From the NCBI GenBank assembly GCA_020912385.1, contig CP087210.1, forward strand, positions 1 to 64,000: a stretch of 64,000 nt of DNA, written 5' to 3'. Within the stretch, counting starts at the first letter, position 1, and each line of letters starts with the position of its first letter. This document shows positions 2,330 to 40,479 of the stretch, one piece after another. A program made the position numbers and the translations under genes. Under the pieces are notes generated by a model. That model did no database searches and had not been told where the DNA came from. It saw nothing but the letters and a program-made list of their open reading frames with translations. This DNA is from Neofusicoccum parvum. Its lineage: Eukaryota; Ascomycota; Dothideomycetes; Botryosphaeriales; Botryosphaeriaceae.

Positions 2330-3166
2330 TTAAATCTATTATTCTTCTTCTAGTTCTTTTAGTTCTAGTTTTAGTTCTACCTCTAGTTTTAACTCTAGTT
2401 CTAGTTCTAGTTCTAGTTCTAGTTCTAGTTCTAGTTCTAGTTCTAGTTCTAGTCTTAGTTTCTAATTCTAGTTTTAGTTCTAGTTCTTCTAATTCTAGTT
2501 CTACTTCTTCTAGTTCCTTCTAGTTTTTTTTTTTTTTTTTTTTTTTTTTCTTTTTTAATTCTTCTAGTTCTTCTAGTTCCTTTAGTTCTACCTCTAGTTC
2601 TAGTCTTAATTTCTAATTCTAGTTTTAGTTTTAGTCCTTCTAATTCTTTTTTAATTCTTTTAGTTCTTCTAGTTCTTTTAATTCTAGTTCTACTTCTTCT
2701 AGTCCTTCTAGTTTTTTTTATTTTTTTTTTTTTTGTTTTTTTTAATTCTTCTAGTTCTTCTAGTTCTTCTAGTTCTTCTAGTTCTTCTAGTTCTTCTAGT
2801 TCTTCTAGTTCTTCTAGTTCTTCTAGTTCTTCTAGTTCTTCTAGTTCTTCTAATTCTACTTCTACTTCTAGTTTTAATTCAAGTTTTAATTCTAGTTCTA
2901 CCTCTAGTTTCAACTCTAGTTTTAATTCTAGTCCTAGCTTTAATTCTAGTTCTAGTTCTTTTAAATCCATCTTTCACCTCTTTTATATATCACTTTATAT
3001 CTGTATTCAATTCCATTTAATTCTACTCATATAGTACATCCAGTTATTATTATTCCTAAAAATCTATCTTTCTTGTTTATTCCCACTCTTTTCAACTATT
3101 ACTCCTCTATTAGTTCCATCTTACTAGCTCTACCTACTAGCTAGCCCTATCTATCTATTAGCTTTA
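2330..3166. repeat. (TTCTAG)n and CT-rich tract downstream of TLH-A
   Basis: Long runs of TTCTAG and TTCTTCTAG hexamer and nonamer units, several poly-T runs (for example 2526-2549), then AT-rich DNA. It lies immediately 3' of TLH-A, as equivalent tracts do for TLH-Z and TLH-C. No gene is visible. Confidence 0.8.
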
Positions 3167-6100
3167 TTATCTCCCTACTCCTCTCTCCTCTATTAAGCTC
3201 TCCACCCTTCCTATCAGCCATAAAAACTCCCGAGCCAAGTTATTACTCTCGAGCTCGTCCTTCCTCCATACCTGTCTAAGATATCCTAGCAGTCTATCTT
3301 TATCTTCATCTCTATCCTCTACCGCCGCCGCCGCTACTCCCGCTCCTACTACTTCCTCTCCTAGCCGTAATAACCACCTCTTCCACACCGTCTTATACCC
3401 GTGCTTGATCCCGTATAATATACCAATTATCACCCCGAAGAACTGGTACTCGCTGCCCTGAACCTACCGCCACCCCTGCCTACCATTACTCTCCCATCTA
3501 TTGCAGATTGCCTGTGGTACCCCGCAGCGAAAGCAGCCCGAGTACCTCTCAAACCTGATTCTTCCCTGCATCTCGCGCCTCTCCCCATCCGCCTGCCTAC
3601 CCCGCTCTGTTGGACAGTGGCTGACGCTGTGCTGGTCTTCCCTACCTGCTGCCTTACATACTAAACATACCCCCTTCCACCTCTGCAGCTTTCTCTGAAG
3701 TAGTTCTGCATCTGCATACACCTGTTGTGTCTGCCTGGCCTGCCTTGCCCTTATTCCTACCTGCTGCTGCTGCTGCCTTTAAAACTCCTGCCTGTCTGAT
3801 TCTCTTTGTTGCGCATTCTGCTCTTCCTCCTGCTGTCTTTCCTGCTGACTTTCCTGCCGACTTTCCCGCTGATTTTCCTGCTGCTTCTCTCTTTGCTGCT
3901 GTCGTATCCTCTGCTGCTGCTCTCTTTGCTGCTGATTTTCCTGCTGCCGCATCCTCTACTGCTGCTCTCTTTGCTGCTGCTCCCTCCACTGCTGCCCCTG
4001 CTGCCGCTGCTGGTACTGGTCTACCCTCTGTTCTTCCTCTACCTCCCTGTCTACCTCTTCCACCTCATCTACCTCTTCCACCTCATCTACCTCCTCTACC
4101 TCCTCCTCCTCATTATTATCATTATTATCATCATCCGTGATCTCTCGCCTAGACTCCCTGCTCCTTCTACAAAAATCACACTTTTCTTCCCCCTCCTCCT
4201 GCCTGCATTCTATCCGCCTAAAACTACCATCTAAAAACTCGTCCATCACCGTTCTCCTACACAGTCCCCCATCTAGATACTGCCTTACCAGCCGGTCATC
4301 GCTCTTCTCCCCCCCCTGAACCATCACTGCTCTGCTGGCCAGTCCATCCCTTCCCGCCCTGCCGCTCTCCTGCGCGTAGTCCAGAAAATCCCGCGGCTCA
4401 TCCGTGTGGATGATGAGCCTGATGCCTGGAATGTCAATCCCCATGCCCAGCGCGCTGGTGGCCACCACTACACGCACCACTCCCGCCTTGAAGTCCTCTA
4501 GCACCTCCTTCTTCCTAGCTTCTGATATCTTGCTGTAAAATGCCTCGCACTGGAACAGCCCTGCGTCCACCAAGCTCTTCACCCTGGTCACTGTGTTGCA
4601 GTAGATGACCACCTTTCCTTCTACCGTTGCCTGTAGTTCCTCTTCCACCATCTCTTCTATTTTCCTATTCTGCGCCTCCTTCCCTCCTTGTCTTCCTCGC
4701 CATCCTCCCCCTCTCCCTCCTCCCCCTCCTCCCCCTCCTCTCCCTCCTCTCCCTCCTCTCCCTCCTCCATTCTCCACCTCCACCTCCAACTCCACCCCCA
4801 CCACCTGGTAGCTGATGTTTCTGCGGGTAGTAACCGCCCTGAACACCACCACCTCGGCCGCAGTCCAGCCCATCCTGCGCCACAGCTCAGCCTCTTTGCT
4901 GGGTGGTAGCGTTGCTGTGAGCAGAACCATCTGCGTTTCTGCCGCTATAAGCTTCCCCAGCTGCTGCAGCTGCTTACGGAAGTCCACCTGGTCGTTCAGC
5001 ACCACGTGGCACTCGTCGATGATGATCCTGTCCAGCTGCCTCATCGCCCTGAGCCGGTTTAAAAACGTCATGAACTCGTCGCTCAGTGCTGCCTCTGGCG
5101 TGACCAGCACGATGGACTCCGCGTCTGGTGGCCGCCTCGCCTCCTATTCTGCACAGCTAATGCCCAGCTTGCTGCAGCGCTCTTTCATGTCCGCTCGCAG
5201 CGCGATGAGTGGTACTACCACTACCGTCGTTCCTCCTGGCTCCGTCCAAGCTGGCAGCATGAACAAGATGCTTTTCCCAGCTCCGGTTGGCATCACTGCC
5301 ACCACCGGGCTCACTCCAGCCTAGATGGCGGTCACTGCCTCTTCCTAGACGCTGCGGAACTCGGCTTTCTTTCCCATCAACCTTTGCAGCTGCTCCTTCG
5401 CGTTGGCCCTCTTCAGCCTCGCCCAGCGGTCTAGCCGCTCCTCGTCCGCGTCGTCCTCAAACGGGCAGCGCTTTCTCTTCCTAGAAGCCGGTTCCTGGCT
5501 TTTAAATGCCGACTAGAAGCCTAAGAAGCGGTGCTAGTCGGTGCTGGAAGCGCGGAACAGCAGCCTCTTCTCCGCCACCACGCCCGCCTGCTCCATCATC
5601 CCACGCGCGTAGATCAAGCCCGCGGTGTGGGATGTGTGTCCTGCCTAGGCGTCTGCAATGGCTGCTGCTGCCCGGTCTTCTCCCTCCACCTCCATCTGCT
5701 GCTGCTGCTCCTGCTCATTCCCATTCTCTCCTCCCCCCTCCTCATCTACCCTGAACGCGCTGGAGCCGCGCATGAACCGCCTGCTGATGCCGATGGCGAC
5801 GTCCCTGTACGCTCTGACCGTCAGCTCCTGGCCTAAGCCGATCCTGCTCTCCTTCTTCATCGCCTCCCTCATGCGCTCCGTCGTCCACCTCTTCTCCCCC
5901 GCCTCCGCCGGCCACATGTGGGCCGAGATCTGCTGGCTCCCACCTCGCACCGCTGCCAGCATGCGCTGGTGGAATGGCAAGACTAGCCACAGATACCACA
6001 CCACCAGCTCCCCCACCTCCCTGGGCAGATACCTGTGGATCACCTTGACATCCCCGGACATGGCGTAGCCCTTGTGGTAGCGCGTGACGAACACGACTAG

Positions 6101-8522
6101 CCCGTCCTCTACGAAGATGTTGCGGTGCCCTCCCTTGGCCGTGTTGCTGTACCTGATGCTGAGAATCTCCGGCCCTCTCGCCGGCTGCCCACCGGTGATG
6201 TGCATCAGCAGCAGCAGCTTCTCCCTAAACTCGGCCACCTGCGCTGCATATGCATCTACCGCCTGCCTGCTGATGCCTGAGCTCGCGTTTTCCCTGGTGA
6301 ACCTCTTCCTCGCAGCAGTGATTCCCATGATCCTGTTGAACAACCAAGTGTTCCCGTCTGCTGGCAGCCTGGTGCGCTGGTCCTGCAGAAAGCTCCACCC
6401 TCTGCGCTCCTCAGCTGGGTTGTCCCTGATGGAATGCCACGGCACTGCTGGCACGTCCATTTCCCTATGCTCTTTCTTGTGGCTGCTGTAGCCGCCAAAC
6501 AGCAGCTCCTGGAGCAGCAGCTGGCGAGTGTCGTTCAGCAAGCCGTGCACCATGCCCCTGAACTTGGCCATGGTGAACTGGATGCCCTGGTACAGCAGCT
6601 GCTCCCGCCCATTCCATCCCACATGGCCCTTGGTGGTGGTGTTGTAGTGGATCTTCATCCCGTAAGTGCGCAGATCCAGTATCCACTGCATGGGACTGTG
6701 GCTGCCTCGGATCATGAAGCTGTCCATCATCTTGGTCACCAGCTCTAAGCAGCTCATCTTCATCTGGCTGCGCTGGCTGCGCTGGCTGCGCTGGCTGCGC
6801 TGGCTGCGCCCACTGCTGTCCCTGGCGCTGCCCTGGCCGCTGTTCCTGCTGCTGCCCTGGCCGCTGCTGGTCCTGCTGCTGGCGCTATCCTGGCCACTGC
6901 TGTCCTGGCCACTGCTGCTCTGGCCGGCGCTGCCCTGGCTGCTACTGCTCCTGCCGCCCTGGCTGCGCCCGCTGCGCCCACTGCTGTCCCTGGCGCTGCC
7001 CTGGCCGCTGTTCCTGCTGCTGTCCTGGCCACTGCTGCTCTGGCCGGCGCTGCCCTGGCCGGCGCTGCCCTGGCCGGCGCTGCTCCTGCCGCCCTGGCTG
7101 CTGCTGCTCCTGCCGCCCTGGCTGCTACTGCTGCTGCTACTGCTGCTGCCGCCAGCATCGCCTCCACCATAACCGCCAGCGCCGTCCTCCTCCTCCTCCT
7201 CCTCCTCCTCCTCCTCCTCCTCCTCCTCCTCCTTCTCAAAGTCCCATGCGCTGCCCCCACTGCTAAACTCCTCCCTACCATCCTCCTCCCCTTCTGCTGC
7301 TGCTGCTGCTGCTGCTGCTGGACCCGCCATCTCCAGCGCCTTCTGCACCACCATGAAGCGCCCCACCTTGATGATGGCCGACAGAATCGCCGTGTACAGA
7401 CCCGGCTCCCTCCAGCCGGTGGGCGTGACCCCCTGCACCGCCAGAGCGCAGACCAGAGCGCTGTCGTACTCGCGCTGCGTGATCCTCTGGTTCAGCAGTT
7501 CAATGCAAAAGTCCAAGCACGCCTTCTGGATCCCGGACAGCTTTGGTGGCAGCTGCTGCTGCTGCTGCTCTTCTAAACCAGCTCCTTCTTCTTCTTCATT
7601 ATCATCATCATCATCACCATCACTTCTTCCTCCCTCTTCTTCCTCGCTTTCTTCTTTATCTCTTCCTCCCCCTTTCCCTTCTTCTTGCTTCTTTACAGCT
7701 TGCTCTGCCTCCTCCATCAGCCTGGTGAATGCCCTGGACTGCCTGCGGGTGAACCTGTACTCTGGGCTTCTCCAGTCATGCTCCTGCTGCGTCCTGACGA
7801 AGAACATCAGCACCTGCTTCCACGCCCTCGACCTGTCCGCGACCGCGTTTTCCTCCATGTACGGCTGCAGCGGGTGGTACCGGTTCTGGTGCTTCTCCGT
7901 CCTCATCAGCTCCATGCGGATGAATATGCCGACCTGCTGGGTCACCGCCTGCTGGCCGATGCGCGCAACCTCGTCCATGGCTTTCCAGATGGCCGCTGCC
8001 GCCGGCTCCTCCTCCTCCTCTGACCTGTCCGGGTTGGCGTTGGGCTCCTCAACCGACGCTAGCAGATCGTCGCGGTCCAGCCGCGCCAGATACGGCAGCC
8101 ACTGCGTCCTGTCCAGCCACGGGCTGACCTCGTCCTTCTCTCCTTCCTCGATGGTGGCCCGGGCCCGCTTCTCCAGCTCCTCCCAGTTCTGGTTCGCCTT
8201 GTTCCACGCCTGCTGCCACAGCTGCTCCCCTCCTCCCTCCCCTCTCTCCCCTCCCTCCTGGGCGGGCTGCGCCTGGTCCTCCTGCTGCGCTTGCTCCTCT
8301 GGCTGGCACACTTCAAAGTACTGCGAGCCGTGGAAGGTGGGGAAGAAGCGCTGGCAGTAGACCTGCTTTACCGCCTCTTGGAACCTCTTATTCAACCCCT
8401 CTTCCACCATCCTGCTCTGCCGGCCTTTGCCTCCTCCAATCGACCATCCGTGCTCGGTGCGCCAGTGCTCTTTCATCATCCTTTCATTCCTGCAGACGTA
8501 CTGGCAGCTGCTACTATTACTG

Positions 8523-8568
<46 letters not shown>

Positions 8569-8839
8569 GGTCCTTCTGGCACAGCAGCCCGTCCTTGAAC
8601 AGTGGCAGCTCTGTGACGGGCCGTTGCACCCGGGCTGGCACTTCCAGCTCGCTCGAGAATGCAATCAAGCTATGCCAGCTTCTAACCTCACCACCGACCA
8701 GCTCCGCCTGCTTCCGGCCCATCCGGTGGTGTTTCCCCCGCAGATGGCCTTCCACCTGGTCCGGCCAGACGGCGTGCCGGCACTCCCTGCAGATCGCGAG
8801 CCGGTATTCCGCCTGGTGATAAAAGTACGCTGTCGCCAT
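3167..8839 (-). pseudogene. TLH-A: telomere-linked zinc-finger / tyrosine recombinase-like / RecQ helicase
   Basis: One reading frame of about 1,890 codons runs from the ATG at 8839 to 3167 without a frameshift. It is broken only by at least eight stops (first at 5645-5647), each explained by CAG to TAG or TGG to TAG when compared with TLH-C, as RIP would produce. Domain order: C2H2-type finger of the OrsD/DUF3505 kind (residues 13-38), a second C2H2 (about 111-130), long acidic, Ser- and Gln-rich linkers, a tyrosine recombinase-like domain (about 880-1080; R888, K923, R1009/R1012, H1068, Y1077), a RecQ-type helicase (MPTGAGKS near 1182, DECH near 1272, ESGRAGRDG near 1490, Cys cluster near 1555), a Gln-rich linker, and CCHC knuckles (about 1725-1780). 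The 3' end faces the telomere. A nuclear DNA-end function is inferred from the family. Confidence 0.92.
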
Positions 8840-9140
8840 TTGGTGCGCTAGCTAGTATTGTCTTGCTAATACTGAAAGTTGCTAGAGAGAATGATGCTGG
8901 TGTGAGAAAGCTCGTAAATGCTGCTGCTACTACTACTGCTACCGCCGCTGCTGCCGCCGCCGCCGCACGGATCACCCTTACCCCATCAAAAAACCTCAAC
9001 CCTAACCCTACTCTTACCCCAAGTGGCTGGTTTTCTCACGACGCAGCGGTCGGATTTTAAGGTGGCTCATATAAAAAGTGGTCGCAGAGCCACGCTTGGA
9101 AATCTGACCGAGTGTAGACTCGATCCGAGCACCTCGCTCC

Positions 9141-9208: not shown

Positions 9209-9234
9209 AAATCCAGCGCGGTCGCGCTGGATTT
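9209..9234. repeat. 26-bp perfect palindrome at the TLH-A module edge
   Basis: Arms AAATCCAGCGCG (9209-9220) and CGCGCTGGATTT (9223-9234) around a GT spacer. It sits next to the CTTTCGGTTAG junction. The inverted 12-bp arms resemble recombinase half-sites, although a 2-bp spacer is shorter than the 6-8 bp usual for tyrosine recombinase core sites. Confidence 0.85.
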
Positions 9235-9249
9235 GCGTCTTTCGGTTAG

Positions 9250-11694
9250 ATGTTGCGGTGCCCTCCCTTGGCCGTATTGCTATGCCTGATGCTGAGAATC
9301 TCCGGCCCTCTTGCCGGCTGTCCACCGGTAATGTGCATCAGCAGTAGCAGCTTCTCCCTAAACTCGGCCACCTGCGCTGCATATGCATCTACCGCCTGCC
9401 TGCTGATGCCTGAGCTCGCGTTTTCCCTGGTGAACCTCTTCCTCGCAGCAGTGATTCCCATGATCCTGTTGAACAACCAAGTGTTCCCGTCTGCTGGCAG
9501 CCTGGTGCGCTGGTCCTGCAGAAAGCTCCACCCTCTGCGCTCCTCAGCTGGGTTGTCCCTGATGGAATGCCACGGCACTGCTGGCACGTCCATTTCCCTA
9601 TGCTCTTTCTTGTGGCTGCTGTAGCCGCCAAACAGCAGCTCCTGGAGCAGCAGCTGGCGAGTGTCGTTCAGCAAGCCGTGCACCATGCCCCTGAACTTGG
9701 CCATGGTGAACTGGATGCCCTGGTACAGCAGCTGCTCCCGCCCATTCCATCCCACATGGCCCTTGGTGGTGGTGTTGTAGTGGATCTTCATCCCGTAAGT
9801 GCGCAGATCCAGTATCCACTGCATGGGACTGTGGCTGCCTCGGATCATGAAGCTGTCCATCATCTTGGTCACCAGCTCTAAGCAGCTCATCTTCATCTGG
9901 CTGCGCTGGCTGCGCTGGCTGCGCTGGCTGCGCTGGCTGCGCTGGCTGCGCTGGCTGCGCTGGCTGCGCTGGCTGCGCCCACTGCTGTCCCTGGCGCTGC
10001 CCTGGCCGCTGTTCCTGCTGCTGCCCTGGCCGCTGCTGGTCCTGCTGCTGGCGCTATCCTGGCCACTGCTGTCCTGGCCACTGCTGCTCTGGCCGGCGCT
10101 GCCCTGGCTGCTACTGCTCCTGCCGCCCTGGCTGCGCCCGCTGCGCCCACTGCTGTCCCTGGCGCTGCCCTGGCCGCTGTTCCTGCTGCTGTCCTGGCCA
10201 CTGCTGCTCTGGCCGGCGCTGCCCTGGCCGGCGCTGCCCTGGCCGGCGCTGCTCCTGCCGCCCTGGCTGCTGCTGCTCCTGCCGCCCTGGCTGCTACTGC
10301 TGCTGCTACTGCTGCTGCCGCCAGCATCGCCTCCACCATAACCGCCAGCGCCGTCCTCCTCCTCCTCCTCCTCCTCCTCCTCCTCCTCCTCCTCCTCCTC
10401 CTCCTTCTCAAAGTCCCATGCGCTGCCCCCACTGCTAAACTCCTCCCTACCATCCTCCTCCCCTTCTGCTGCTGCTGCTGCTGCTGCTGCTGGACCCGCC
10501 ATCTCCAGCGCCTTCTGCACCACCATGAAGCGCCCCACCTTGATGATGGCCGACAGAATCGCCGTGTACAGACCCGGCTCCCTCCAGCCGGTGGGCGTGA
10601 CCCCCTGCACCGCCAGAGCGCAGACCAGAGCGCTGTCGTACTCGCGCTGCGTGATCCTCTGGTTCAGCAGTTCAATGCAAAAGTCCAAGCACGCCTTCTG
10701 GATCCCGGACAGCTTTGGTGGCAGCTGCTGCTGCTGCTGCTCTTCTAAACCAGCTCCTTCTTCTTCTTCATTATCATCATCATCATCACCATCACTTCTT
10801 CCTCCCTCTTCTTCCTCGCTTTCTTCTTTATCTCTTCCTCCCCCTTTCCCTTCTTCTTGCTTCTTTACAGCTTGCTCTGCCTCCTCCATCAGCCTGGTGA
10901 ATGCCCTGGACTGCCTGCGGGTGAACCTGTACTCTGGGCTTCTCCAGTCATGCTCCTGCTGCGTCCTGACGAAGAACATCAGCACCTGCTTCCACGCCCT
11001 CGACCTGTCCGCGACCGCGTTTTCCTCCATGTACGGCTGCAGCGGGTGGTACCGGTTCTGGTGCTTCTCCGTCCTCATCAGCTCCATGCGGATGAATATG
11101 CCGACCTGCTGGGTCACCGCCTGCTGGCCGATGCGCGCAACCTCGTCCATGGCTTTCCAGATGGCCGCTGCCGCCGGCTCCTCCTCCTCCTCTGGCCTGT
11201 CCGGGTTGGCGTTGGGCTCCTCAACCGACGCTAGCAGATCGTCGCGGTCCAGCCGCGCCAGATACGGCAGCCACTGCGTCCTGTCCAGCCACGGGCTGAC
11301 CTCGTCCTTCTCTCCTTCCTCGATGGTGGCCCGGGCCCGCTTCTCCAGCTCCTCCCAGTTCTGGTTCGCCTTGTTCCACGCCTGCTGCCACAGCTGCTCC
11401 CCTCCTCCCTCCCCTCTCTCCCCTCCCTCCTGGGCGGGCTGCGCCTGGTCCTCCTGCTGCGCTTGCTCCTCTGGCTGGCACACTTCAAAGTACTGCGAGC
11501 CGTGGAAGGTGGGGAAGAAGCGCTGGCAGTAGACCTGCTTTACCGCCTCTTGGAACCTCTTATTCAACCCCTCTTCCACCATCCTGCTCTGCCGGCCTTT
11601 GCCTCCTCCAATCGACCATCCGTGCTCGGTGCGCCAGTGCTCTTTCATCATCCTTTCATTCCTGCAGACGTACTGGCAGCTGCTACTATTACTG

Positions 11695-11740
<46 letters not shown>

Positions 11741-12011
11741 GGTCCTTCTGGCACAGCAGCCCGTCCTTGAACAGTGGCAGCTCTGTGACGGGCCGTTGCA
11801 CCCGGGCTGGCACTTCCAGCTCGCTCGAGAATGCAATCAAGCCATGCCAGCTTCTAACCTCACCACCGACCAGCTCCGCCTGCTTCCGGCCCATCCGGTG
11901 GTGTTTCCCCCGCAGATGGCCTTCCACCTGGTCCGGCCAGACGGCGTGCCGGCACTCCCTGCAGATCGCGAGCCGGTATTCCGCCTGGTGATAAAAGTAC
12001 GCTGTCGCCAT
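9250..12011 (-). pseudogene. TLH-B: tandem, 3'-truncated copy of TLH
   Basis: The open frame from the ATG at 12011 covers the OrsD-like fingers, acidic and Ser/Gln/Arg linkers and the first recombinase box (RGPE). It stops at 9250, where the gene joins TLH-A's upstream region within CTTTCGGTTAG. About 921 codons remain; Lys, RxYR and GH...Y boxes and the whole helicase are absent. It is almost identical to TLH-A: a few substitutions, one extra Glu codon and four extra Arg-Ser-Gln units. Unlike A and C it has no internal stop in the kept part, so it could be transcribed, but it would make only the N-terminal half. Confidence 0.9.
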
Positions 12012-12421
12012 TTGGTGCGCTAGCTAGTATTGTCTTGCTAATACTGAAAGTTGCTAGAGAGAATGATGCTGGTGTGAGAAAGCTCGTAAATGCTGCTGCT
12101 ACTACTACTGCTACCGCCGCTGCTGCCGCCGCCGCCGCACGGATCACCCTTACCCCATCAAAAAACCTCAACCCTAACCCTACTCTTACCCCAAGTGGCT
12201 GGTTTTCTCACGACGCAGCGGTCGGATTTTAAGGTGGCTCATATAAAAAGTGGTCGCAGAGCCACGCTTGGAAATCTGACCGAGTGTAGACTCGATCCGA
12301 GCACCTCGCTCCAAATCCAGTGCGGTAAATCCAGTGCGGTGCGCGTCCAGCCCACCCGACGATTCTTTCCCACACAATCTAAATCCAGCGCGGTCGCGCT
12401 GGATTTGCGTCTTTCGGTTAG
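12012..12421 (-). promoter_or_regulatory. TLH-B upstream region with the same repeat-palindrome set
   Basis: Copy of 8840-9249. Direct repeats lie at 12313-12340 and the palindrome at 12381-12406. The segment ends with CTTTCGGTTAGG at 12411-12422, where the first LINE begins. Confidence 0.6.
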
Positions 12422-13882
12422 GAAAAGGCGGTAAAGGAGAGGCGTAAGCTACCAGCAAGGCAGGGAAGTAAAAGAGCAAGGACAGAGGATACCATTGAGG
12501 TAGCTATTGGAGCGCCTACGGCCTTTTCAAGCAAGACAGGCGCCAACAAAGAAGACACGCAAATTTTGCGTCAGAAGGCAGAGCAGCTCCAGCGCCTAGT
12601 TAAGAGCCAGCTAGAAATGCTTCAGAGACAAGAGGACATGATCAGCGCTCAGGGTGAGCAGATCAAGGACCAACAGAAGGCTATGGCAACTCTCACAGCT
12701 GCAGTCAAGGAGCTATCCCAGGAGATAAAAGCAACGAAAAATGAACAAGCCCGCTTCTCTCGCGAAGCCGGGGAAATCAAGGCAAGGCTGGCTAAGCCTC
12801 CCAGCCAGATAAAGCCAACATATAGCGCGGTCCTTGGAGCAGCACCAGTAGCAGCAAGCCCTAAGCTGCCACTCCAGGGAGCAGCAAAAGCAAAAGCGAA
12901 TGAGGAACCCAGAACGGTGACAGTGGACATTACAAGAGCTAAAGGCGAGAGAAGCGACCTAAATAAGGTTAAAGCAGCTCTGGACGAGGGCCTGGATAGC
13001 TACGAGGTTACTAAGGAAGTTTCTATTGAATTCATCCGGCCTCATGGAGAGGGCGCCATTGACCTGGTCTTTAGCTCTGAGGCCGAGGCCCAGAAGGCGC
13101 GCCAACACCCCCGCTGGCTGCAGAGTACATTGCCAGGAGCTAGGACGAGAGGAGAGACCTGGTACCCAATCAAGTGTGATGGAGTGTCCAAACACATGGT
13201 TCTAAACTGGACCACCACTAGGGATAGATCCATCAAAGAGGAGGTTCTTAGCAACTTCCAAAAGGAGAATGGGGATGGTAAGGTTAACTGCGCAGCAAGG
13301 AAAGCTGCGTGGCTCAGTAAAACTGAGGTGGGAAAGGCAACTGGATCGCTGGTCATCTGGCTGGCAAAGAAGGAGGCGGCTCAGTACCTCCTCACCCAAG
13401 GCTCAGTACGGTTTGGGGCCTCTGCAGCCTACTGCACCATGTTCAAGGAGAGAGAGGACCAAAGGCCATGCTTCAGATGCAACAAATACGGCCACAAGCA
13501 AAGCAGATGCACTGGGAGCATCCGGTGTGGAATCTGTTCTAGTGGACACGACACACGCAACTGCAACAAGAGGGACAGTCCAAGGTGTCCAGCCTGCGGC
13601 GACGCACACACTATCTTTGATAGAGGGTGCCCACTTCACCCAAGGCACACAAGACCAGGCGTTAGAACAGCTGCAAGGCTAACAGGAAAGTCGGCAAACA
13701 CGCCAGCTGGGAAGCCGGTATCCGAGAAGCCGGCAACCAAGCCTGCAGGGAAGCCGGTACCCAAGCCTACAGAGAAGCTAGCAACCAAGCCCACAGAAAA
13801 GCCGGTAACCTCCCAGCCAGCAGGGACGCTGGCAACGGGTGATGTTGAAATGGGGGAAGCTAGCACCACTACCACATGTTAG
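12422..13882 (+). CDS. LINE-1 ORF1, gag-like nucleic acid-binding protein (5' partial)
   Basis: Open frame without an ATG from the junction to the TAG at 13880-13882; the N-terminus is missing. The first part is Lys/Glu/Gln-rich and probably coiled coil (codons from about 12566). The C-terminal third has three zinc knuckles: CFRCNKYGHKQSRC (CX2CX4HX4C), CGICSSGHDTRNC and CPACGDAHTIFDRGC. A repetitive Lys/Pro/Ala/Thr tail follows. LINE ORF1 proteins package element RNA in the RNP. The stop overlaps the ORF2 start by 7 nt (ATGTTAG). Confidence 0.85.
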   Translation, partial: EKAVKERRKLPARQGSKRARTEDTIEVAIGAPTAFSSKTGANKEDTQILRQKAEQLQRLVKSQLEMLQRQEDMISAQGEQIKDQQKAMATLTAAVKELSQEIKATKNEQARFSREAGEIKARLAKPPSQIKPTYSAVLGAAPVAASPKLPLQGAAKAKANEEPRTVTVDITRAKGERSDLNKVKAALDEGLDSYEVTKEVSIEFIRPHGEGAIDLVFSSEAEAQKARQHPRWLQSTLPGARTRGETWYPIKCDGVSKHMVLNWTTTRDRSIKEEVLSNFQKENGDGKVNCAARKAAWLSKTEVGKATGSLVIWLAKKEAAQYLLTQGSVRFGASAAYCTMFKEREDQRPCFRCNKYGHKQSRCTGSIRCGICSSGHDTRNCNKRDSPRCPACGDAHTIFDRGCPLHPRHTRPGVRTAARLTGKSANTPAGKPVSEKPATKPAGKPVPKPTEKLATKPTEKPVTSQPAGTLATGDVEMGEASTTTTC

Positions 13883-16800
13883 AGGGCCTCCGGATCCTCC
13901 AGCTAAACGTCGGAAAGAGAATGGAGGTTCAACAGAGCCTCCTCAACAACCTGGAAACGGCCCAGTTCGACGTGTTGGTAGTATCAGAGCCGTACTTGTA
14001 CAGAGGAGAAGACGACAAACCAAGGGTCAACTTCCACCACCAGTGGGAGGCCGTGACCCCAACAGCACACAGAGAAGGGCACATACGGCACAGATTCCGA
14101 GCAATGATCTGGGTAAATAACCGGATCAAAGCTCAGGTAGTACCAGTGGAATCGCCAGATATTGCAGCAGTCCTACTACAGGCAGGAGGAAAGCCAATAC
14201 TTTTGTTCTCAGCATATGTACCCAGGGAAGGTAGAGCGGTCTATAATGATGCTAGTACTCTTGCAGAGAGAGTTAGACTCATTGACCAGGCCATACAAGA
14301 AACGGAACAGCAGGAAGGAAAAGAGCTAGAGACTATCATTGCAGGAGACCTGAACCGACATGACCAGCTCTGGGGAGGAGATGCAGTTGCTCATGAGGCA
14401 CGCCAGGGAGAAGCAAGTGAGGTGATCAGGCTCATACAGAAGCGAGGGCTGCAGTCCTTGCTCCGGCCAGGCACAATCACCTGGGAGCATCAAAATGGAA
14501 GAGTAAGGTCCACCATCGACCTTATACTTGCATCCGAGTTCCTAGCAGAAAGGCAAGAGTTCTGCAGGACACACCAAACCGACCATGGCTCCGACCACCG
14601 CGCAATTGAGACCTGCTTTGACCTATCAGTCACACGGGCGGAAGAGAAGAAGGGACGGCTACTTTTTCGGAAAACCAACTGGGATCAGGTAAATAGAGAC
14701 CTCCTCTCTACCCTCCTTCCACCAGTAAGGATTAAAGACAAGGAGACCCTGGAGAAAGAAGCAGACCAACTTGTTCGGATAGTGCAGGAGGCAGTAGAGG
14801 CAAGAACACCACGGGCTAAACCATCACCATACGCAAAGCGTTGGTGGACCGATAAGCTTACAACGCTTCGCCAAAGCGTGTCTACGCTTCGAAACCACTA
14901 CACAGCACTAAGAAGGCAAAGAAATGAACAAGAAGTAGATCTCCGCCTAGTAGCAGAGAAGCTGGCGACCGCTAGGGCCCTCTACCTGCAGGAAATCAAA
15001 GCCCAGAAGCGAGCGCACTGGAGGGAGTTCCTCGATGATCCTACCAACGTGTGGAAGGCCAACAGCTTTACACGGGTGGAGTCCTCCACTGGAAAGATAC
15101 CCACGTTGGTAAAGGATGATAGAACTGCAACAACAGAGGAGGAAAAGGCAAGCCTATTACTAGACACCTTCTTTCCTAAGCAGCCAGAGCCGGAAGAACA
15201 AACGGATCCACAACGCCAGAAGCAGCTAAAAGTCCCGCCAATTGAGAAGCCTGAGGTAGAGAGGGCAATCATGCTGGCAAACCCGGACAAAGCACCAGGC
15301 ACAGACGAGCTCCCAGCCCGGGTATGGAAAGAAATCTGGCAGGTGGCAGGTGACCACATCACCAACCTCTACGAGGCATCGCTACGGCTAGGTCATCTGC
15401 CAGCTAAGTGGAGGACAGCCAAGATTATCCCACTACGGAAGCCGGGCAGGGACTACACAATGCCTAAAGCGTACAGGCCAATCTCACTGCTAGCAACAAT
15501 TAGCAAAGGGCTTGAGACAGTCGTGGCAAGGCGGGTGTCATACCTAGCAGAGGAGCACCAGCTACTCCCAAAGAATCACTTTGGTGCCCGGCGCAAACGA
15601 TCCTGTGAGCAAGCACTCAACATCCTTGTGGAAAAGATTTACGAGGCGTGGAGAGGACAACGCGTTCTTTCCCTAGTCACGTTTGATGTTCAAGGCGCCT
15701 ACAATGGTGTGAGTAAAGAGGTACTACTGCAGAGACTGCGGGAGAGGCGGCTACCTGAAAACATTGTCCGGTGGGTGGACAGCTTCTGTTCAGAGAGAAA
15801 AGGTTGTGTGATGGTAAATGGGCACTGTTCGCCTCTGCAGGACATTGAACACCCAGGAGTACCCCAAGGCTCACCACTATCACCAATCCTATACATCCTG
15901 TACAATGCAGGACTGGTGGAAGGGCCAATCAACAAGGAGCAAGGCACTCTAGGCTTTGTAGATGATTACACAGCCTGGGTAACTGGGCCCTGTGTAAGCA
16001 CCAACGTCAAGACTCTCCAGGAAAAGTTCATACCAAAGGTAGAGGGCTGGGCACGTAAAAGCGGGGTCACCTTTGAAGCGGAGAAAACCAAGCTGATCCA
16101 CTTCACGCGGAATCCAATAAAGGATGACGTCCCAACCCAGGCCCTTACCTTTCAAAGCCAGGAAATCCAGCCAAGCGATACTGTCAAGATCCTTGGTGTG
16201 CTACTAGACAAGAAGATGCAGATGAAGGACCATATGGCGAGAGCTACGACAAAGGCAATGAAGCAGTGTCTAGCAATAAAGCGGTTAAAAGGGGTACGGC
16301 CAAGGGCAATGAGACAACTCTTTATTACCACAGTTGTCCCTATAACTGACTACGCTGCTTCATGCTGGTACGGGCCAGGCCGGTTGGGAACAAGCAAACT
16401 GCTCGGTATGCTTGAAAGGATCCAGCGACTAGGAGCCCAGGTGATCACTAGAGCGTTTAAAACAGTGGCGCTACCAGTACTGGAAGCGGAAGCTGGTTTG
16501 TGCTCGGTAGAATCCAGACTGAAGAGGAAGGTGGGCAAGCACCTCGTTGGACTCCTCAGTCTCCCAGAGGCGAATCCAGCAGCCAGGTGTGTAAAGGCAC
16601 TCAGGTCACAAGGTGGAAGGTGGCAGAGTCCCTTGCAGCACACATGGAACGAATTTACAGAACTAGCCAGACCAGAGAAGGCCCCCCAGATGGAGATAAT
16701 CCTGCCTTGGAGCCGTCCCCCATGGGCAGCGCTGGCTGGAACGCGGATTCAGATTGAAGAGAAGGAACAGGCAAAGAGAAAAGTACAGCAATTACCGCAG

Positions 16801-17802
16801 TCAAGCACAGTCTATGTTGACGGCGCAGTAAGAGAAGGGATGTGCAGTATTGGGGTGGTCCGTATGGTAAATACACACCAGCCAGTGACAGTCCTTCAAG
16901 AAACAGTGGCAAGAGCGAAGTCCTTTTCAGTTCTTGCTACAGAGCTCCTTGCAATACTGGCAGGGCTGGAAAACCTGGTCACAGAGAGAAAAGGGAGAAG
17001 AAACGTTTTTCTGGTCACAGACAGCCAGAAGGCACTGAAGGCAATCCAGACTGACACTCAAACGGAGGGGCAGTACATCCTACAAGACATCTACAAGGTG
17101 TTGGATAAGATTGTAGCCCGAGGTGTTACCCCCTGGCTCATCTGGGTGCCAGCCCACTCAGGGGTGAAGGGGAATGAGGCAGCGGACAGAGCAGCAAAGA
17201 GGGCAGTTAAACCAGGCCAGAGACCGGACCGAGACTCCCAGGACCGTCGGAGGCTGGTCAAAACAGTCACGCAGGCAGTGCTTGTAAGGGTGCAAGAGGA
17301 AGAGAAGGAAAATGCGAAGCAGAGAAAGAGGTACGGAAGATATACGTGGGAGCTGGATGGTGCTGCACCAGGCAAACACACTATCAACCTCTATAACAGA
17401 CTGGACTCGGAGCAGGCAGCAGTCCTGATTCAGTGCCGCTCAAACCACTGCCGACTTAAGCCCTATCTTCACAGAATAGGTCGAGAGGAGTCAGATGAGT
17501 GCGAGTGTGGCATGAGCCAGGAGACAATTAAACATGTACTACTAGAGTGTCCGCAGTGGCGGGACCCTAGACGAGAGCTGGTGGTAGCAGCAGGGGAGAG
17601 ATGGGGGGATGTTTCCTTTTTATTAGGTGGATGGAGCGGATGGGAGGACCGGCACACTGGGAAACCAGTAGACGGTCCAAAGGAGAAGTGGAAGCCTAAC
17701 TATACAGTAGTCAAGGCAGCCATTCAGTTCCTACAAAGAACCGGGCGGTTCCGAGATGAACATGGGGAGGCTTACACATCGAACCCACCACAAGAGATGT
17801 AA
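13876..17802 (+). CDS. LINE-1 ORF2: endonuclease, reverse transcriptase, RNase H
   Basis: Intact 1,308-residue polyprotein. The N-terminus is an exonuclease-endonuclease-phosphatase (APE-type) domain with GDLNRHDQLWGG near 156 and SDHRAIE near 238. The reverse transcriptase spans about 480-750, with FDVQGAYNG near 602, PGVPQGSPLSP near 660 and the catalytic box FVDDY near 692 (Phe replaces the usual Tyr/Ala first position). RNase H runs about 975-1105 (VYVDGAV, TDSQKAL, HSGVKGNEAADRAA). A CCHC-like CECGMSQ...HVLLEC lies near 1207-1222. The start ATG overlaps the ORF1 stop, pointing to termination-coupled reinitiation. Confidence 0.93.
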   Translation: MLEGLRILQLNVGKRMEVQQSLLNNLETAQFDVLVVSEPYLYRGEDDKPRVNFHHQWEAVTPTAHREGHIRHRFRAMIWVNNRIKAQVVPVESPDIAAVLLQAGGKPILLFSAYVPREGRAVYNDASTLAERVRLIDQAIQETEQQEGKELETIIAGDLNRHDQLWGGDAVAHEARQGEASEVIRLIQKRGLQSLLRPGTITWEHQNGRVRSTIDLILASEFLAERQEFCRTHQTDHGSDHRAIETCFDLSVTRAEEKKGRLLFRKTNWDQVNRDLLSTLLPPVRIKDKETLEKEADQLVRIVQEAVEARTPRAKPSPYAKRWWTDKLTTLRQSVSTLRNHYTALRRQRNEQEVDLRLVAEKLATARALYLQEIKAQKRAHWREFLDDPTNVWKANSFTRVESSTGKIPTLVKDDRTATTEEEKASLLLDTFFPKQPEPEEQTDPQRQKQLKVPPIEKPEVERAIMLANPDKAPGTDELPARVWKEIWQVAGDHITNLYEASLRLGHLPAKWRTAKIIPLRKPGRDYTMPKAYRPISLLATISKGLETVVARRVSYLAEEHQLLPKNHFGARRKRSCEQALNILVEKIYEAWRGQRVLSLVTFDVQGAYNGVSKEVLLQRLRERRLPENIVRWVDSFCSERKGCVMVNGHCSPLQDIEHPGVPQGSPLSPILYILYNAGLVEGPINKEQGTLGFVDDYTAWVTGPCVSTNVKTLQEKFIPKVEGWARKSGVTFEAEKTKLIHFTRNPIKDDVPTQALTFQSQEIQPSDTVKILGVLLDKKMQMKDHMARATTKAMKQCLAIKRLKGVRPRAMRQLFITTVVPITDYAASCWYGPGRLGTSKLLGMLERIQRLGAQVITRAFKTVALPVLEAEAGLCSVESRLKRKVGKHLVGLLSLPEANPAARCVKALRSQGGRWQSPLQHTWNEFTELARPEKAPQMEIILPWSRPPWAALAGTRIQIEEKEQAKRKVQQLPQSSTVYVDGAVREGMCSIGVVRMVNTHQPVTVLQETVARAKSFSVLATELLAILAGLENLVTERKGRRNVFLVTDSQKALKAIQTDTQTEGQYILQDIYKVLDKIVARGVTPWLIWVPAHSGVKGNEAADRAAKRAVKPGQRPDRDSQDRRRLVKTVTQAVLVRVQEEEKENAKQRKRYGRYTWELDGAAPGKHTINLYNRLDSEQAAVLIQCRSNHCRLKPYLHRIGREESDECECGMSQETIKHVLLECPQWRDPRRELVVAAGERWGDVSFLLGGWSGWEDRHTGKPVDGPKEKWKPNYTVVKAAIQFLQRTGRFRDEHGEAYTSNPPQEM

Positions 17803-17949
17803 TGGCAGCGAAGGAAGTAAACAGATTGGACTAAGAAGTGAGAAGAGGCTAAAGAACAGGATAATGTAAGGCTAAAGAGAGGGACGGCTCTTATACTACC
17901 TAGAATGTATCGTAGCCTGACAGAATCAATCAATCAATCAATCAATCTT

Positions 17950-18077
17950 TCGAAAAACCACCACCAACGCCTCTTCCAGTGGAAGACCTCCAGGCCTCCC
18001 AGGAACAAGCCTCAGCACAAGACATTCACGCCTATCAACAGAAGATTGGATCAATCAACTTTGCGGCCAGGACCTCC
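17950..18077 (+). pseudogene. Copia-type pol fragment fused to the LINE-2 5' end
   Basis: In one frame this reads as the Ty1/copia segment between RT and RNase H: a Pro-rich lead, VEDLQASQEQAS, then IHAYQQKIGSINFAA and TS. This resembles the conserved YQ-x-x-(I/V)GS-hydrophobic-AA-x-TRPD block. The similarity ends exactly where LINE-2 sequence shared with the copy at 49358 begins (GAGAAAGGGATCTTAC). Template switching onto a copia RNA could explain it. Assigned from memory of the motif, not from a search. Confidence 0.55.
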
Positions 18078-18295
18078 CCCGAGAAAGGGATCTTACTAAC
18101 CAAGGCTCGGCCCGTGACCAAACCACTACCAAAAGAAAGCGCACAGCGGCCACACCACTTCAACTTAGTAGCAAAGCCTGCACCGCCAAAGCGCGGCCGC
18201 TAGGCTAGGCTATCGTACAGCGCCATCCACACTCACCAGACGCAAAATTCTCCCTCTACTGGTCAAAGCTCAGGCTCGGCACTCTACATGAAACC

Positions 18296-19564
18296 ATGTT
18301 TCCCAATCCAGGCCCCCTGCAACGCGGACGGCGCAAGTCAACTACTGCTCCACCCAACAGCCAAATCATTACTAGATCCAAGTCAGCCGCTCCTAGCGGA
18401 AAAATCAGAGAGAAACGACGTACCGCCAGTTATAGAAACAATCAAGACACAGAAGACGAAACCCACACGAGCTCCACAGAAGACGACCCCCCTAGTAGCC
18501 AGACCATACAATCCACGCAAGCAACCCTCCAAGTAGAGACAAACCCGAACACCGAAACACTAGCCCTACTAGTATCCCAGCAGCAAAAGACAATCCAACT
18601 CCTCCAAAAGGAAAGAGAGGAGGCCAAGAAAGAGCACCAGGAACTAACCAAGCTTATCAGCAACCTGGCTGAGCAAGTCCAGAAACTCGAGAGCAAGCTC
18701 CAACCAGCAGCCACCAGTCCCCCGCAAAGCCAAAGCTGGGCAACAGTTGCAGCCCGCGGAGCACTCCAAACGCCCCCAACCTACAACAGGCAATCCGGAA
18801 ACAACCCTACGACGATACTCATCGACGTTCCACCACCAGGCCCTGACCAGACACCAGCAAACGGCTTCACCCGGAACCTGCCTACCCCAACCGCAGTGAA
18901 CCTCGTATCCCGAGCACTTAAAAGCCAAGAGCCAACCAAACAAGCGGAAGTCCTAGGAGCAAAGGCAACAAAGCGAGGATACCTCATCCGCTTTAAGAAT
19001 AAAGAAGCCAAACAGCTTGCAATTCAGAATCAAGAATGGACCACGGTGCTAGGAAAAGACACGAAAATCAATCGCCCAAGATTTGGAGTGGTAGCCCACC
19101 GCACGCCAACAGGCGAAGTCCAGATAGAAGAAAAGGAAAACGCAATCCAGAAGATCACTCTTGAGAACAAGCTCTTAGAGACAGACACGCAGATTGAGGA
19201 TATAGCCTGGATGAAGAAGAAAGATAACCCCTTCGGCCAACACGCGTCCCTGGGGATATGGTTCAACACTGAAGAAGCAGCCCAAAATGCAGTTCAGAAT
19301 GGGCTTCTCTTTGGACAGGAAATTGTCAACCGTGTTGAATTCTACCGCATGGAAAGAAAGAGGTGTTATAGATGCCAGGGATTTGGACACCTCGCTAGTA
19401 ACTGTAGGGAAAAGGAAAGATGCGGAAACTGCAACGGAGGACACAACACGAGGAACTGCCCACCAGGCAGCTCTCCCCAGTGTGCAGACTGCCGCGGCAG
19501 CCACCCAACAGGAGACAGCCAGTGCAGAGCCCAGATCCTCCCCCATATTAGCTTCCAATGCTAG
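18296..19564 (+). CDS. LINE-2 ORF1, gag-like RNA-binding protein
   Basis: Intact 422-residue protein. The basic, Ser/Thr-rich N-terminus is followed by a strong coiled-coil segment (about 85-140, heptads of Leu/Ile within QQQKTIQLLQKEREEAKKEH). A central domain contains RGYLIRFKNKEAKQL, and three zinc knuckles close the protein: CYRCQGFGHLASNC, CGNCNGGHNTRNC and CADCRGSHPTGDSQC. The ATG at 18296 is used; an alternative upstream ATG at 18288 is out of frame. The stop overlaps ORF2 (ATGCTAG). Expected role: binding element RNA and chaperoning reverse transcription. Confidence 0.9.
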   Translation: MFPNPGPLQRGRRKSTTAPPNSQIITRSKSAAPSGKIREKRRTASYRNNQDTEDETHTSSTEDDPPSSQTIQSTQATLQVETNPNTETLALLVSQQQKTIQLLQKEREEAKKEHQELTKLISNLAEQVQKLESKLQPAATSPPQSQSWATVAARGALQTPPTYNRQSGNNPTTILIDVPPPGPDQTPANGFTRNLPTPTAVNLVSRALKSQEPTKQAEVLGAKATKRGYLIRFKNKEAKQLAIQNQEWTTVLGKDTKINRPRFGVVAHRTPTGEVQIEEKENAIQKITLENKLLETDTQIEDIAWMKKKDNPFGQHASLGIWFNTEEAAQNAVQNGLLFGQEIVNRVEFYRMERKRCYRCQGFGHLASNCREKERCGNCNGGHNTRNCPPGSSPQCADCRGSHPTGDSQCRAQILPHISFQC

Positions 19565-22500
19565 AGCCCCTACGAATTGTCCAATTGAACATCTGGAAAA
19601 CAAACGAATGCATGGAAGCCTTAATCAACGACCCAGACACGGAAAAACTCGACATCCTTCTTATTCAAGAACCACCAGTCTCTTTCTTTAAAAACCTACC
19701 ACAACACCGCTCATGGCACCTATACACCCCAACCTACACTGGAACTCAGAAAAAACGATCCGCCATCTACGTTAATAAACGAATCTCCTCCTCTGCACAG
19801 CAGCAAGTTCCATGCAATAGCCGAGACCTTACAGCTGTTCAAATTCAGACACCAAACCAGCCAATCCTCATCTTCTCAGTCTACATACCGCCAATGGGAG
19901 GAACCCAACAGTCGGCAGAGAACGAAATGCTTGCAGCTCTCCAAGCAATCCGCCAGTCCATAGCAAAGCAGACAACATGCAACACCCTAGGCCTGATCCT
20001 CGGAGGAGACTTCAACAGACAAGACCCGCTATGGGGCGGAGACAATATTAAACCATATCTGGTAGGAAGCGCAGCATCCTTAATCTCGTTTATGGAAGAA
20101 CATCACCTTCAGAGCCACCTCTATCGTGGCACACCAACCTGCTACGCCAGTAACAAAGCCGACAGTAGAACGACACTAGACCTTACTCTTAGCAACATTC
20201 CAAACCAGCTAGTTAAGTGTGAGCTTCTAGACCAAAACTACGGGTCCGACCACAGAGCCATCTTCTCTGAATGGAACATGGAGGTCGAACAGGCCAATAC
20301 ACGACCACCACGCAAGCTCTATGAGCGAACAGACTGGACAAAGACAGGACAGGCTATTCAGCGCGCCCTTGGGCAGGCAAGGCAGATTGCCACATGTGGA
20401 CAGCTCGACAAAGCAGTCGAGCAGCTTATTAGTACAACCACAGCTATAACAAATGAGTTTACGCCAACTGCCAAGCCATGTCCATACTCGAAGCAGTGGT
20501 TTAACCCAGAACTCAAAGATCACCAATCTAAATATAACAAGCACCGCCGGCTCTGGCAAACCTTTAGCGCAAGCCTTGGAAGAGACAACCCAGACACAGT
20601 GGACCAATACAGCGCAATGAAGATGGCCCGTAGAGAATGGGTAAAAGCAATAGCACATGCAAAGAGCAGCCACTGGAAGGACTTTCTAGATAATGCAGGG
20701 AAAGGCAACCAGCTATGGAAGGCAGCTAAATACGCTAGCCCAAGCGATAACTACAGCAACATTCCCCCACTCTCTACAGGCAACAACAAAGCCACAGAAA
20801 ATGCAGAGAAGGCACAACTTCTACTAGACACCTTCTTTCCAAAGCCAACCAGCCCACAACCACCAGCTCAATCTACTATGGCAACTCCTATAGGGTGGGA
20901 ACCGATCACAGAAGCCGAAATCCACCAGAGTCTAAGCTCTACCAAACCCAACTCTGCCCCTGGAGATGATGGCCTTCCTATGCTTGTCTGGCAGAAGCTT
21001 TGGCCCTACATTACTACATATATCCACCACATCTTCTCTGCATCTATCAACCTTGGCCACCATCCTAAAGCCTGGCGTACAGCAGCAATCATTGTCCTCC
21101 GGAAAGCTGGCAAGCCTGACTACACAATTCCCAAAGCATACCGCCCAATCTCACTACTCAACACACTCGGAAAGTTGCTAGAAGCAGTAATGGCAAAGAG
21201 GCTATCCTACTATGCTGAGAAGCACAATCTCTTGCCAGCCACCCAGTTTGGGGCAAGACCAGGTAGATCAACAGAGCAAGCTCTCCTTATCCTAGTTGAT
21301 GCTATATGGAAGGCTTGGAAAGAACACAAAGTGGTCACGCTTATGGCATTCGACCTGAAAGGTGCCTTTAATGCAGTTGGCAAGGAGGTACTAGACCACT
21401 GCCTGGCTAAGAGAGGGATTCCAACTGAAGCAAGGTGCTGGATCAAGAGCTTTATGGAGAACAGAACAGCTTCAATATCGTTTGATAACTACACCAAGCC
21501 AGCTGCAGCTCTCAACCACCCTGGTCTCCCTCAAGGCTCACCTCTCTCACCAATTCTCTTTGCCTTCTACAACGCCGACCTAGTTGACCAGCCAGTTGAC
21601 TTCACTGGAGGATCATCTGCCTACATTGATGATTACTGCCGGTGGCGAACAAGCCTATCTGCAAGCAAAAACCTTGCAGCTTTGCAAAGGGAGGACATAC
21701 CAAGAATGCAGCGCTGGGCAGAGCAAACTGGATCAAGCTTTGAAGCAGACAAGACAGAGCTCATACACTTTACAAGAAGTCCAGACCAGAACTGCTCAGG
21801 AGCAATAGTCATGGGCAACCATGTAATTGAGCCTAGGCAAGAAGTGAAGCTGTTAGGAGTTATCTTTGACCAGCAACTCCGGTGGAGAGCCCACGTTCAG
21901 AGAGCTGCCACACGAGCAACCAAGACCTGCCTGGCCATAGGTAGACTGAGGCACCTCCGACCAAAGCAGATGCGCCAGCTCTATCAAGCATGCGTGATTC
22001 CTCAACTGGACTACGCCTCAACCGTCTGGCACTCCCCAAAGAGATGCAAATGGCAAGTGGCAGTACTCTCCAGGATTCAGCGGCTGGCAACAACCAAGGC
22101 TATTTCAGCCTTCCAAACCGTTTCAACTGAAGCACTAGACTACGAGAACTTTCTCCTACCAACAAAGCTACGCCTACAGGCTAGGGCAGAGAGGGTCATT
22201 ACTAACCTCAAAACACTCCCCACCTCTCATCCATGCAAGACGCTTGTCAACAAAACAATATCAACACTCAATCTGGCAGTCAGCTTCCTGAGCCCACTGA
22301 ATGCAACCCTCAAATTACAAAGCCCAGGCCAGGCTGAGGAGACTGAAGTAATTGATACATGCCCCCTTCCACCATGGAAACCCCTGCTACTAGACAACAT
22401 CCAACGGCAGCTACCCAAATCTCAGACCCTAGAGGTTTTCAAGGAAGAGCTTAAACGAGACGGGGCTAAGAGGATCTTCACGGACGCATCTCAAGTAAAA

Positions 22501-23430: not shown

Positions 23431-23553
23431 AACACTCTTTACACCACACACCTAACACCTCACTCTCCGCCTCTCTTTACCTTCTCCTTCTCTCAAATTG
23501 ACACACAACATGTATACTAGCATTGAAATTCTTTGAATAGTCGTAGCCTGCAT

Positions 23554-23568
23554 ATCGCTCAGGGCGAT
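23554..23568 (+). other. LINE-2 3' UTR hairpin
   Basis: ATCGC and GCGAT arms around a 5-nt loop, just after TCGTAGCCTG and before GGGTCAGGG and the tandem tail. The arrangement is kept in the degraded copies near 33978, 39768 and 40083, so it may be the 3' recognition structure for the element's own RT. Confidence 0.5.
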
Positions 23569-23622
23569 GGGTCAGGGTAAATGAATTCAACTCAACTCAA
23601 CTCAATCAATCTTTCGGTTAGG

Positions 23623-23930
23623 AGTTTGTTAGTTCTAGTTATAATTCTACTTCTACTTCTACCATTACTTCTACTATTACTTCTAGTTCTACTTCTAGTT
23701 CTTAGTTCTAGTTCTACTTTTAATTCTACTTCTAGTTCTACTTTTAATTTTCTACTTCTAGTTCTACTTTTAATTTTCTATTTCTAGTTCTACTTCTAGT
23801 TTTTACTTCTACTTCTTCTTTTTCTAGCTTTACTTCTAGTTTCAACTCTTCTAATTCTAGTTCTAGTTCTAGTTCTAGTTCTAGTTCTAGTTCTAGTTCT
23901 AGTTCTAGTTCTATTTTTTCCTACTATTAC
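23623..23930. repeat. (TTCTAG)n / CTTCTA pyrimidine tract
   Basis: Starts right after the CTTTCGGTTAGG junction at the LINE-2 tail and consists of TTCTAG and CTTCTA units. It is the internal counterpart of the telomere-adjacent tracts at 218 and 2330. Confidence 0.8.
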
Positions 23931-23961
23931 TATTATATATATATATATTACACTCTTATCC

Positions 23962-25730: not shown

Positions 25731-25761
<31 letters not shown>

Positions 25762-25829
25762 TTTCCTTTGCTGCTGCTGCTGCTTCTTCTGCTGCTGCTG
25801 CTGCTCCCTCTACTGCTGCTCCTCCCTCC

Positions 25830-25866
<37 letters not shown>

Positions 25867-40137: not shown

Positions 40138-40202
40138 CCTTTCAGTTAGGGTTGCCCGGCACGGTGAGGTCCCTCGGACCGCGTTATCCGTGTTGTAATT
40201 CT

Positions 40203-40299: not shown

Positions 40300-40479
40300 A
40301 CTACTTATCTTTTTACCTACCGCTATCTCTCCTTACTACTTCTTTTCTTTTTCGTCTTCTATAATCGCTTAATTAGACCTATACGCCTCTATAAAGTAGA
40401 CACCAATGAAACCCGATTAGGAAAAAGAAAAATAATATAATCCTAAAAGAAAACAGTTTACCATCCTAAGTAGGCCCTC

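Follow-up and report, generated by a model that had tools for sequence, protein, structure and literature searches.

Telomere-linked helicase units of Neofusicoccum parvum carry a predicted tyrosine-recombinase-like domain and end at an exact centromere-side border

Telomere-linked helicases (TLHs) are described, in the available text of published accounts, as helicases and sometimes as Helitron-like repeats with DUF3505 (PMC8381367, PMC5576322, PMC12857005). The portions consulted report such repeats in all 24 subtelomeres of Colletotrichum higginsianum with a shared orientation (PMC5576322) and TLH regions adjoining FoTeR LINEs in Fusarium (PMC12857005). The units analysed here resemble these fungal TLHs in carrying OrsD (DUF3505) and a RecQ helicase at chromosome ends in a single orientation. 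Our data indicate that they also carry a putative tyrosine recombinase domain and end at one exact border. Neither a recombinase domain nor a precise border joined to AG^G sites is mentioned in the parts of the TLH literature examined (PMC4522978, PMC8381367, PMC5576322, PMC12857005), and searches of a literature from which subscription papers and preprints were mostly absent returned nothing that paired 'telomere-linked helicase' or 'OrsD' with 'tyrosine recombinase'.

The accessible part of one source describes two further fungal groups, Starships, which carry a tyrosine recombinase gene near one end that reads inward, and Cryptons, tyrosine recombinase DNA transposons that were first found in fungi (PMC12134995). 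As in a Starship, the TLH recombinase gene lies at one end of the element and reads inward, starting approximately 400 bp inside the border. Unlike Starships, whose captain is a DUF3435 protein, TLH units measure approximately 9 kb, have the telomere as their second end and carry a fused helicase; 34 TLH members matched neither DUF3435 nor PF00589 nor any other integrase profile in Pfam at E values up to 10, while the genome itself contains DUF3435 genes. The lack of a Pfam integrase match, the single fixed end and the subtelomeric position likewise separate TLH units from Cryptons. Their single-orientation stacks at chromosome ends recall MoTeR, FoTeR and HeT-A, the Drosophila telomeric retrotransposon, but these elements work by reverse transcription, and TLH units carry no reverse transcriptase.

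The window, that is, the whole stretch analysed, corresponds to positions 1-64,000 of C5, one of 18 contigs in a genome of 43,992,428 bases. Telomere repeats, (CCCTAA)n, were read directly at the contig end (1-135, plus strand), in contrast to the hairpin ends of telomere resolvase (protelomerase) systems. A RecQ-like helicase gene near telomeres, as the TLH label denotes, was found within 12 kb of 34 of the 36 contig ends, the right ends of C16 and C17 being those without. The 3' end of the gene faces the telomere in 40 of 42 copies of at least 89% identity, a count that leaves out 27 partial or more distant matches. Reading inward from the telomere of the window, TLH-A joins the interior of TLH-B at 9249, and TLH-B (9250-12421, minus strand), whose telomere side is cut off past box I, joins a LINE at 12421. 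Two tandem LINE copies with endonuclease, reverse transcriptase and RNase H (12422-23610, plus strand), flanked by two copies of CTTTCGGTTAGG, lead to TLH-C at 23621; this older damaged copy (23623-31233, minus strand) meets a minisatellite at 31233, a LINE piece follows at 31349, and TLH-D lies innermost with LINE pieces at 43502-43907. All six CTTTCGGTTAG borders in the window point in one direction.

Every TLH copy in the window, A to D, is damaged. The TLH-A gene body (3150-8851, minus strand; Pfam OrsD, a weak DEAD and Helicase_C) comprises an OrsD zinc finger, a recombinase-like domain and a RecQ helicase, with its 3' end on the telomere side; its left limit is approximate and was set by alignment to an intact copy (L039:3129-8831), to which it is 97.6% identical. 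Relative to this copy, CpA is the context of 16 of its 18 C>T changes and TpG that of 22 of its 36 G>A changes, so that, judged by its base changes, the damage in TLH-A, the one copy examined for this pattern, is RIP-like. Five copies elsewhere in the genome retain open frames of 1,900-1,901 amino acids. In L039, the one of these five that was read throughout, a single frame runs from OrsD through the recombinase-like domain and the RecQ helicase to a C-terminal part containing Cys and His.

The sequence-only reading had placed four boxes of a tyrosine recombinase in order in one minus-strand frame of TLH-A, and we recovered all of them: RGPE from 6178, YHKGY from 6079, RAYRD from 5815 and, in the same frame, GHTSHTAGLIYARG, whose Y (5611) stands nine residues after its H (5638). 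Within a domain with approximate limits of 5530-6763 (minus strand), the putative catalytic codons are those of the box I Arg (6178-6176), the Lys (6073-6071), the box II Arg (5806-5804), the His (5638-5636) and the Tyr (5611-5609). An in-frame TAG (5647-5645, minus strand) between box II and the H/Y box stops the open frame at 1068 amino acids, ahead of H and Y. Box II had been read as R1009xxR1012, of which the second Arg is conserved but the first is not: at the first position of RAYRD one class of proteins mostly has A or Q, the other L, P, T, S or Q, and the His of an HxxR box is absent from both. Tyrosine recombinases usually have a box II His, yet it is replaced in some members.

The same layout had been claimed for TLH-C and TLH-D. 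A recombinase-like region is present in both (matches at 27823-28827 in TLH-C; 40731-41708 in TLH-D); TLH-C has several stops and, where box III should have its H, a Y (GYTSHTAGLIYARG), and TLH-D has many stops. TLH-D (40148-43502, minus strand; H at 40670, Y at 40643) belongs to a second class, in which OrsD is followed by the recombinase-like domain, and no helicase was found in it. We refer to the helicase-bearing class as T and to the second class, of approximately 870 amino acids, as D; none of the best 120 of 433 matches to this class contained a helicase domain. T and D of this genome are approximately 40% identical over the recombinase-like domain. As far as the sequences tell, what the two classes have in common is OrsD and the recombinase-like domain, not the helicase.

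Among 240 relatives whose rows were not selected for motifs, conservation at each of the five catalytic positions reaches 99-100%, and therefore the motif set is not a chance arrangement. These relatives, the best 120 of 707 matches to the domain and the best 120 of 433 for the second class, represent nearer relatives rather than the whole family. The box I Arg is present in 240/240, the Lys in 239/240, the box II Arg in 236/237, the His in 229/231 and the Tyr in 229/232, the three relatives without the Tyr being gapped or broken off at that site. Across 71 full-length proteins plus an intact copy from this genome, R891, E894, K926 and R1014 (L039 numbering) are found in all 72 and H1067 and Y1076 in 71, with one gap. 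Unselected alignments were used for these counts, since the rows of another alignment, A2, were picked beforehand for motifs and its invariant columns are biased. The domain thus has the conserved Arg I, Lys, Arg II, His III and Tyr of a tyrosine recombinase in that order. Sources among the listed matches include Pyrenophora, Alternaria, Plenodomus, Lasiodiplodia, Aspergillus, Penicillium, Histoplasma and Icmadophila; a Neofusicoccum parvum protein, 96% identical across the recombinase-like region, is the closest named one among the best 120 of 707. Conservation of the Arg and Tyr therefore holds in intact genes of several lineages, short of the many fungi that had been envisaged.

Structure prediction gave the same assignment. 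Two models, one for each of the approximately 40% identical classes, yield a fold predicted to be that of the tyrosine recombinase/type IB topoisomerase catalytic domain, and all top structure matches of both belong to this fold, with no match from either model at a Foldseek E value of 0.001 or below. Confidence is locally low, with pLDDT below 50 at H378 and Y387 of the first model and at H329 of the second. Neither sequence nor profile searches of the PDB matched a known recombinase, and a whole-protein profile of A2 returned helicases and no link to recombinases among the best 60 of 310 matches. The predicted catalytic-domain fold resembles those of Xer, Cre and integron recombinases, from which the TLH domain differs by its 9-16% identity over the aligned part, its lack of a box II His and its attachment to OrsD and RecQ. 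Together, the two predicted folds and the conservation of R, K, R, H and Y support the homology to tyrosine recombinases that had been proposed; on the models, the domain very probably has a true tyrosine-recombinase fold, and judged by these residues and the models it is probably an active enzyme. An enzyme resembling type IB topoisomerases, whose task at chromosome ends would be relaxation without recombination, would share the fold, and we consider it highly improbable: Xer and Cre rank above type IB topoisomerases in both models, with partly overlapping margins, and relaxation has no need of exact borders.

Recombinase folds can be tamed for DNA binding, as in Ndc10 at yeast centromeres. 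A TLH of this kind would only bind DNA at chromosome ends and would be a host gene for end maintenance. The presence of TLHs at nearly every end and, to go by the source names of the listed matches, their long conservation across several groups of fungi are in keeping with such a role, which we nevertheless regard as improbable, as mere binding requires none of the catalytic residues, and no residue of the domain is better conserved than these, the Tyr included. Moreover, the copies are many, hit by RIP and diverse at their junctions, as those of a mobile element are.

We next consider the ends of the units. On the centromere side, approximately 400 bp upstream of the gene, CTTTCGGTTAG closes each of the T copies compared. 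The border loci read were 36 short loci, the window and two longer loci. At 34 termini of the main type, T1, all at this motif (one with a G>A change within it), the next 15 bases form 29 distinct strings, of which 28 start with G; 29 overstates the number of independent events, as L048 and L076 represent one target. A 24-bp minisatellite accounts, in variant form, for three of the strings, and LINE1 interior for six (L047, L052, L054, L058, L061 and L071). Genome-wide there are 84 sites of the 12-mer CTTTCGGTTAGG and 7 of its reversed control; 81 of the 84 are found in the outer 100 kb of a contig, 78 in one direction and 3 in the opposite one, and the other 3 lie farther in. No fixed border was found on the telomere side in the ends compared. 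In the window, the border of TLH-A (9239-9249, plus strand) is exact and joins TLH-B interior at AAG^ATG, and those of TLH-B and TLH-C lie at 12411-12421 and 31223-31233. The unit border is thus precise on the centromere side.

A palindrome lies just inside the border. In T1 its arms are 12 bp, as in the 26-bp palindrome of TLH-A (9209-9234, 2 bp between arms) and that of TLH-B (12381-12406); older T2 copies have 15-bp arms at 87%, T3 (L077) has 14-bp arms of different sequence, and the palindrome of TLH-C (31191-31220) also differs from that of TLH-A. As a control, 4 of 5,000 random 60-base pieces of the window, which may include the palindromes themselves, reached 12. Class D was initially considered to share the T border, and this was dropped since D has its own: four copies (the window, L042, L043 and L044) end at GATTTGAGCATATATCTTAG with four differing next bases, the border of TLH-D ends in CATATATCTTAG at 43491-43502, and CATATATCTTAG occurs 30 times in the genome against 0 for its reversed control. 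Empty sites for two class D flanks sit in LINE-like sequence. An exact border joined to many flanks suggests that the TLH unit, precise at one of its ends, is likely a mobile element or one that caps chromosome ends. The border thus gives independent support to the earlier proposal of a mobile or end-remodelling element, and the recombinase as the remodeller is a role that we infer.

The LINE copies of the window end at the same CTTTCGGTTAGG motif in a HeT-A-like orientation, and neighbouring LINEs could have built the units by reverse transcription, with the border as the RNA 3' end and AG^G as primer pairing. The 3' ends of 20 other LINEs make this very unlikely, as 17 run from (TCAAC)n into other DNA and 3 into a motif resembling CTTTTGGTTAGG; internal LINEs also occur in both orientations. 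Our own initial reading of the CTTTCGGTTAG shared by LINE ends, that LINEs move TLHs, was dropped as the 20 ends point to a LINE target. Because the border motif is present on both sides, the LINE joints of the window may be insertions into border sequence, as may the six LINE flank strings. The border motif looks like a LINE target rather than a LINE tail, and junctions were accordingly recounted without LINE flanks.

Uninterrupted targets (at least 85% identity over at least 30 bases, dropping places that resemble another TLH border) were found for 17 of the 29 strings, the other 12 having none in the DNA compared. AG directly precedes the junction in 14 of 17 empty targets (exceptions L047, L049 and L080) and in 10 of 12 after LINE flanks were dropped and the sister type T3 added. 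With a background probability of 0.082 for AG before G in the DNA compared, a simple binomial that treats targets as unrelated gives 3e-13 and 7e-10, respectively. In one AG case, at 9249, the next base is A, not G. The clearest target reads GCCGTGTAGGG^TTTACC in dispersed repeat copies and CTTTCGGTTAGGG^TTTACC at the left end of C3. Target and border have AG or AGG in common, and of the two element ends the inner one alone is fixed. Five of the six LINE flanks likewise have AG ahead of the junction, so that the dinucleotide may stem from joining at microhomology and not from a preference of the recombinase; the 3 of 17 targets without AG, and the lack of a fixed telomere-side border, are evidence against joins made by a recombinase.

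Broken or eroded ends might instead be healed by the host through microhomology-mediated break-induced copying from TLH-bearing ends, the palindrome being a hot spot for breaks or copy starts and the recombinase fold idle in the joins. Junctions do share 2-5 bases with the element end, and the available text on Magnaporthe describes telomere failure mended by capture of subterminal sequence near TLH, in part microhomology-mediated (PMC8381367). We consider this route unlikely, if worth keeping in view: 34 joins at one nucleotide are hard to obtain from copying that could start anywhere in the unit, and the second class has another exact border. Ordinary repair accounts for the microhomology, not for the single-nucleotide precision.

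A recombinase that joins the border to a three-base site would account for the precision of the end, the diversity of flanks, the AG in common and the palindrome, and also for the same habit in the helicase-less class. One end of such a unit would be the exact centromere-side sequence and the other the telomere itself. The enzyme would recognise the border, probably through the palindrome and CTTTCGGTTAGG, cut it and a short AG^G site elsewhere, and exchange strands, while the helicase domain would open the DNA; the parts given to palindrome and helicase are likewise suppositions. The target chromosome would gain the whole unit and its telomere, and the tip beyond the target would be lost or traded away; exchange with a site on another chromosome would yield a swapped arm tip bearing element and telomere. 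Repeated events would leave stacks of truncated older units in one direction, like that of the window. That the enzyme encoded by TLH makes the border joins is a proposal poised just below even, and we place the reading of TLH as a chromosome-end mobile element with its own tyrosine-recombinase-type enzyme making the joins at the same level. The fuller picture is somewhat more tentative still: a telomere-capping transposon, in which a recombinase-RecQ fusion joins the border to AG^G and replaces the arm tip, subtelomeres would be stacked moves, and the helicase-less OrsD-recombinase class would represent an earlier or less elaborate version.

TLHs have so far been helicases without an assigned use at fungal ends, and a conserved putative recombinase active site, together with the exact border, reframes why a RecQ gene sits at every end and how it spreads, turning this into a question for the bench, namely whether the TLH protein cuts and joins its own border. 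If so, TLHs would represent DNA-based capping or swapping of chromosome ends, beside telomerase and telomeric retrotransposons, and would put a named enzyme to much of the rearrangement in fungal subtelomeres. Speaking against this, copies with the TAG ahead of the H/Y box also sit at many ends with differing flanks, so that either they were mobilised in trans or ordinary recombination distributed them.

We found that the stop lying before the H/Y box (the His and Tyr of the recombinase-like domain) is common to a group of class T copies of the telomere-linked helicase gene (TLH), namely those that carry the helicase, comprising loci L028-L036 and the window copy, TLH-A. These copies occupy many ends and their flanks differ, a pattern as if they had moved in trans or spread via recombination.

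LINE copies seem to favor telomere-like targets, since several are located directly before CTTTYGGTTAGG and five of the 20 LINE ends read fall exactly at GGTAAACCC of a dispersed repeat (window 12422-23622, L104, L105-L108, L109, L112, and L116). At the left end of contig C3, TLH uses the GGG^TTTACC point (^, junction) of a dispersed repeat, and two other sequences, L088 and L089, join that repeat at the identical point. The border of class D (the class in which no helicase was found), CATATATCTTAG, is present on either side of a LINE-like fragment whose tail is (CCAAT)n (window 43491-43887). A 24-bp minisatellite lies immediately outside several TLH borders (window 31234-31340, L064, L065, L068, L070, and L074), and its unit, GATACCTTCAGGCCTTTNGGTTAG, is similar to the TLH border.

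Genes or pieces of DUF3435 (Starship captain type) gave 16 matches in the whole genome, on C12, C17, C18, C9, and C2, with two of these places approximately 21 kb from a contig end. Among relatives from the domain search, P0052, recorded as a protein of the plant Tanacetum cinerariifolium, shares 61% identity with fungal TLH over the recombinase-like domain; this record probably reflects fungal contamination.
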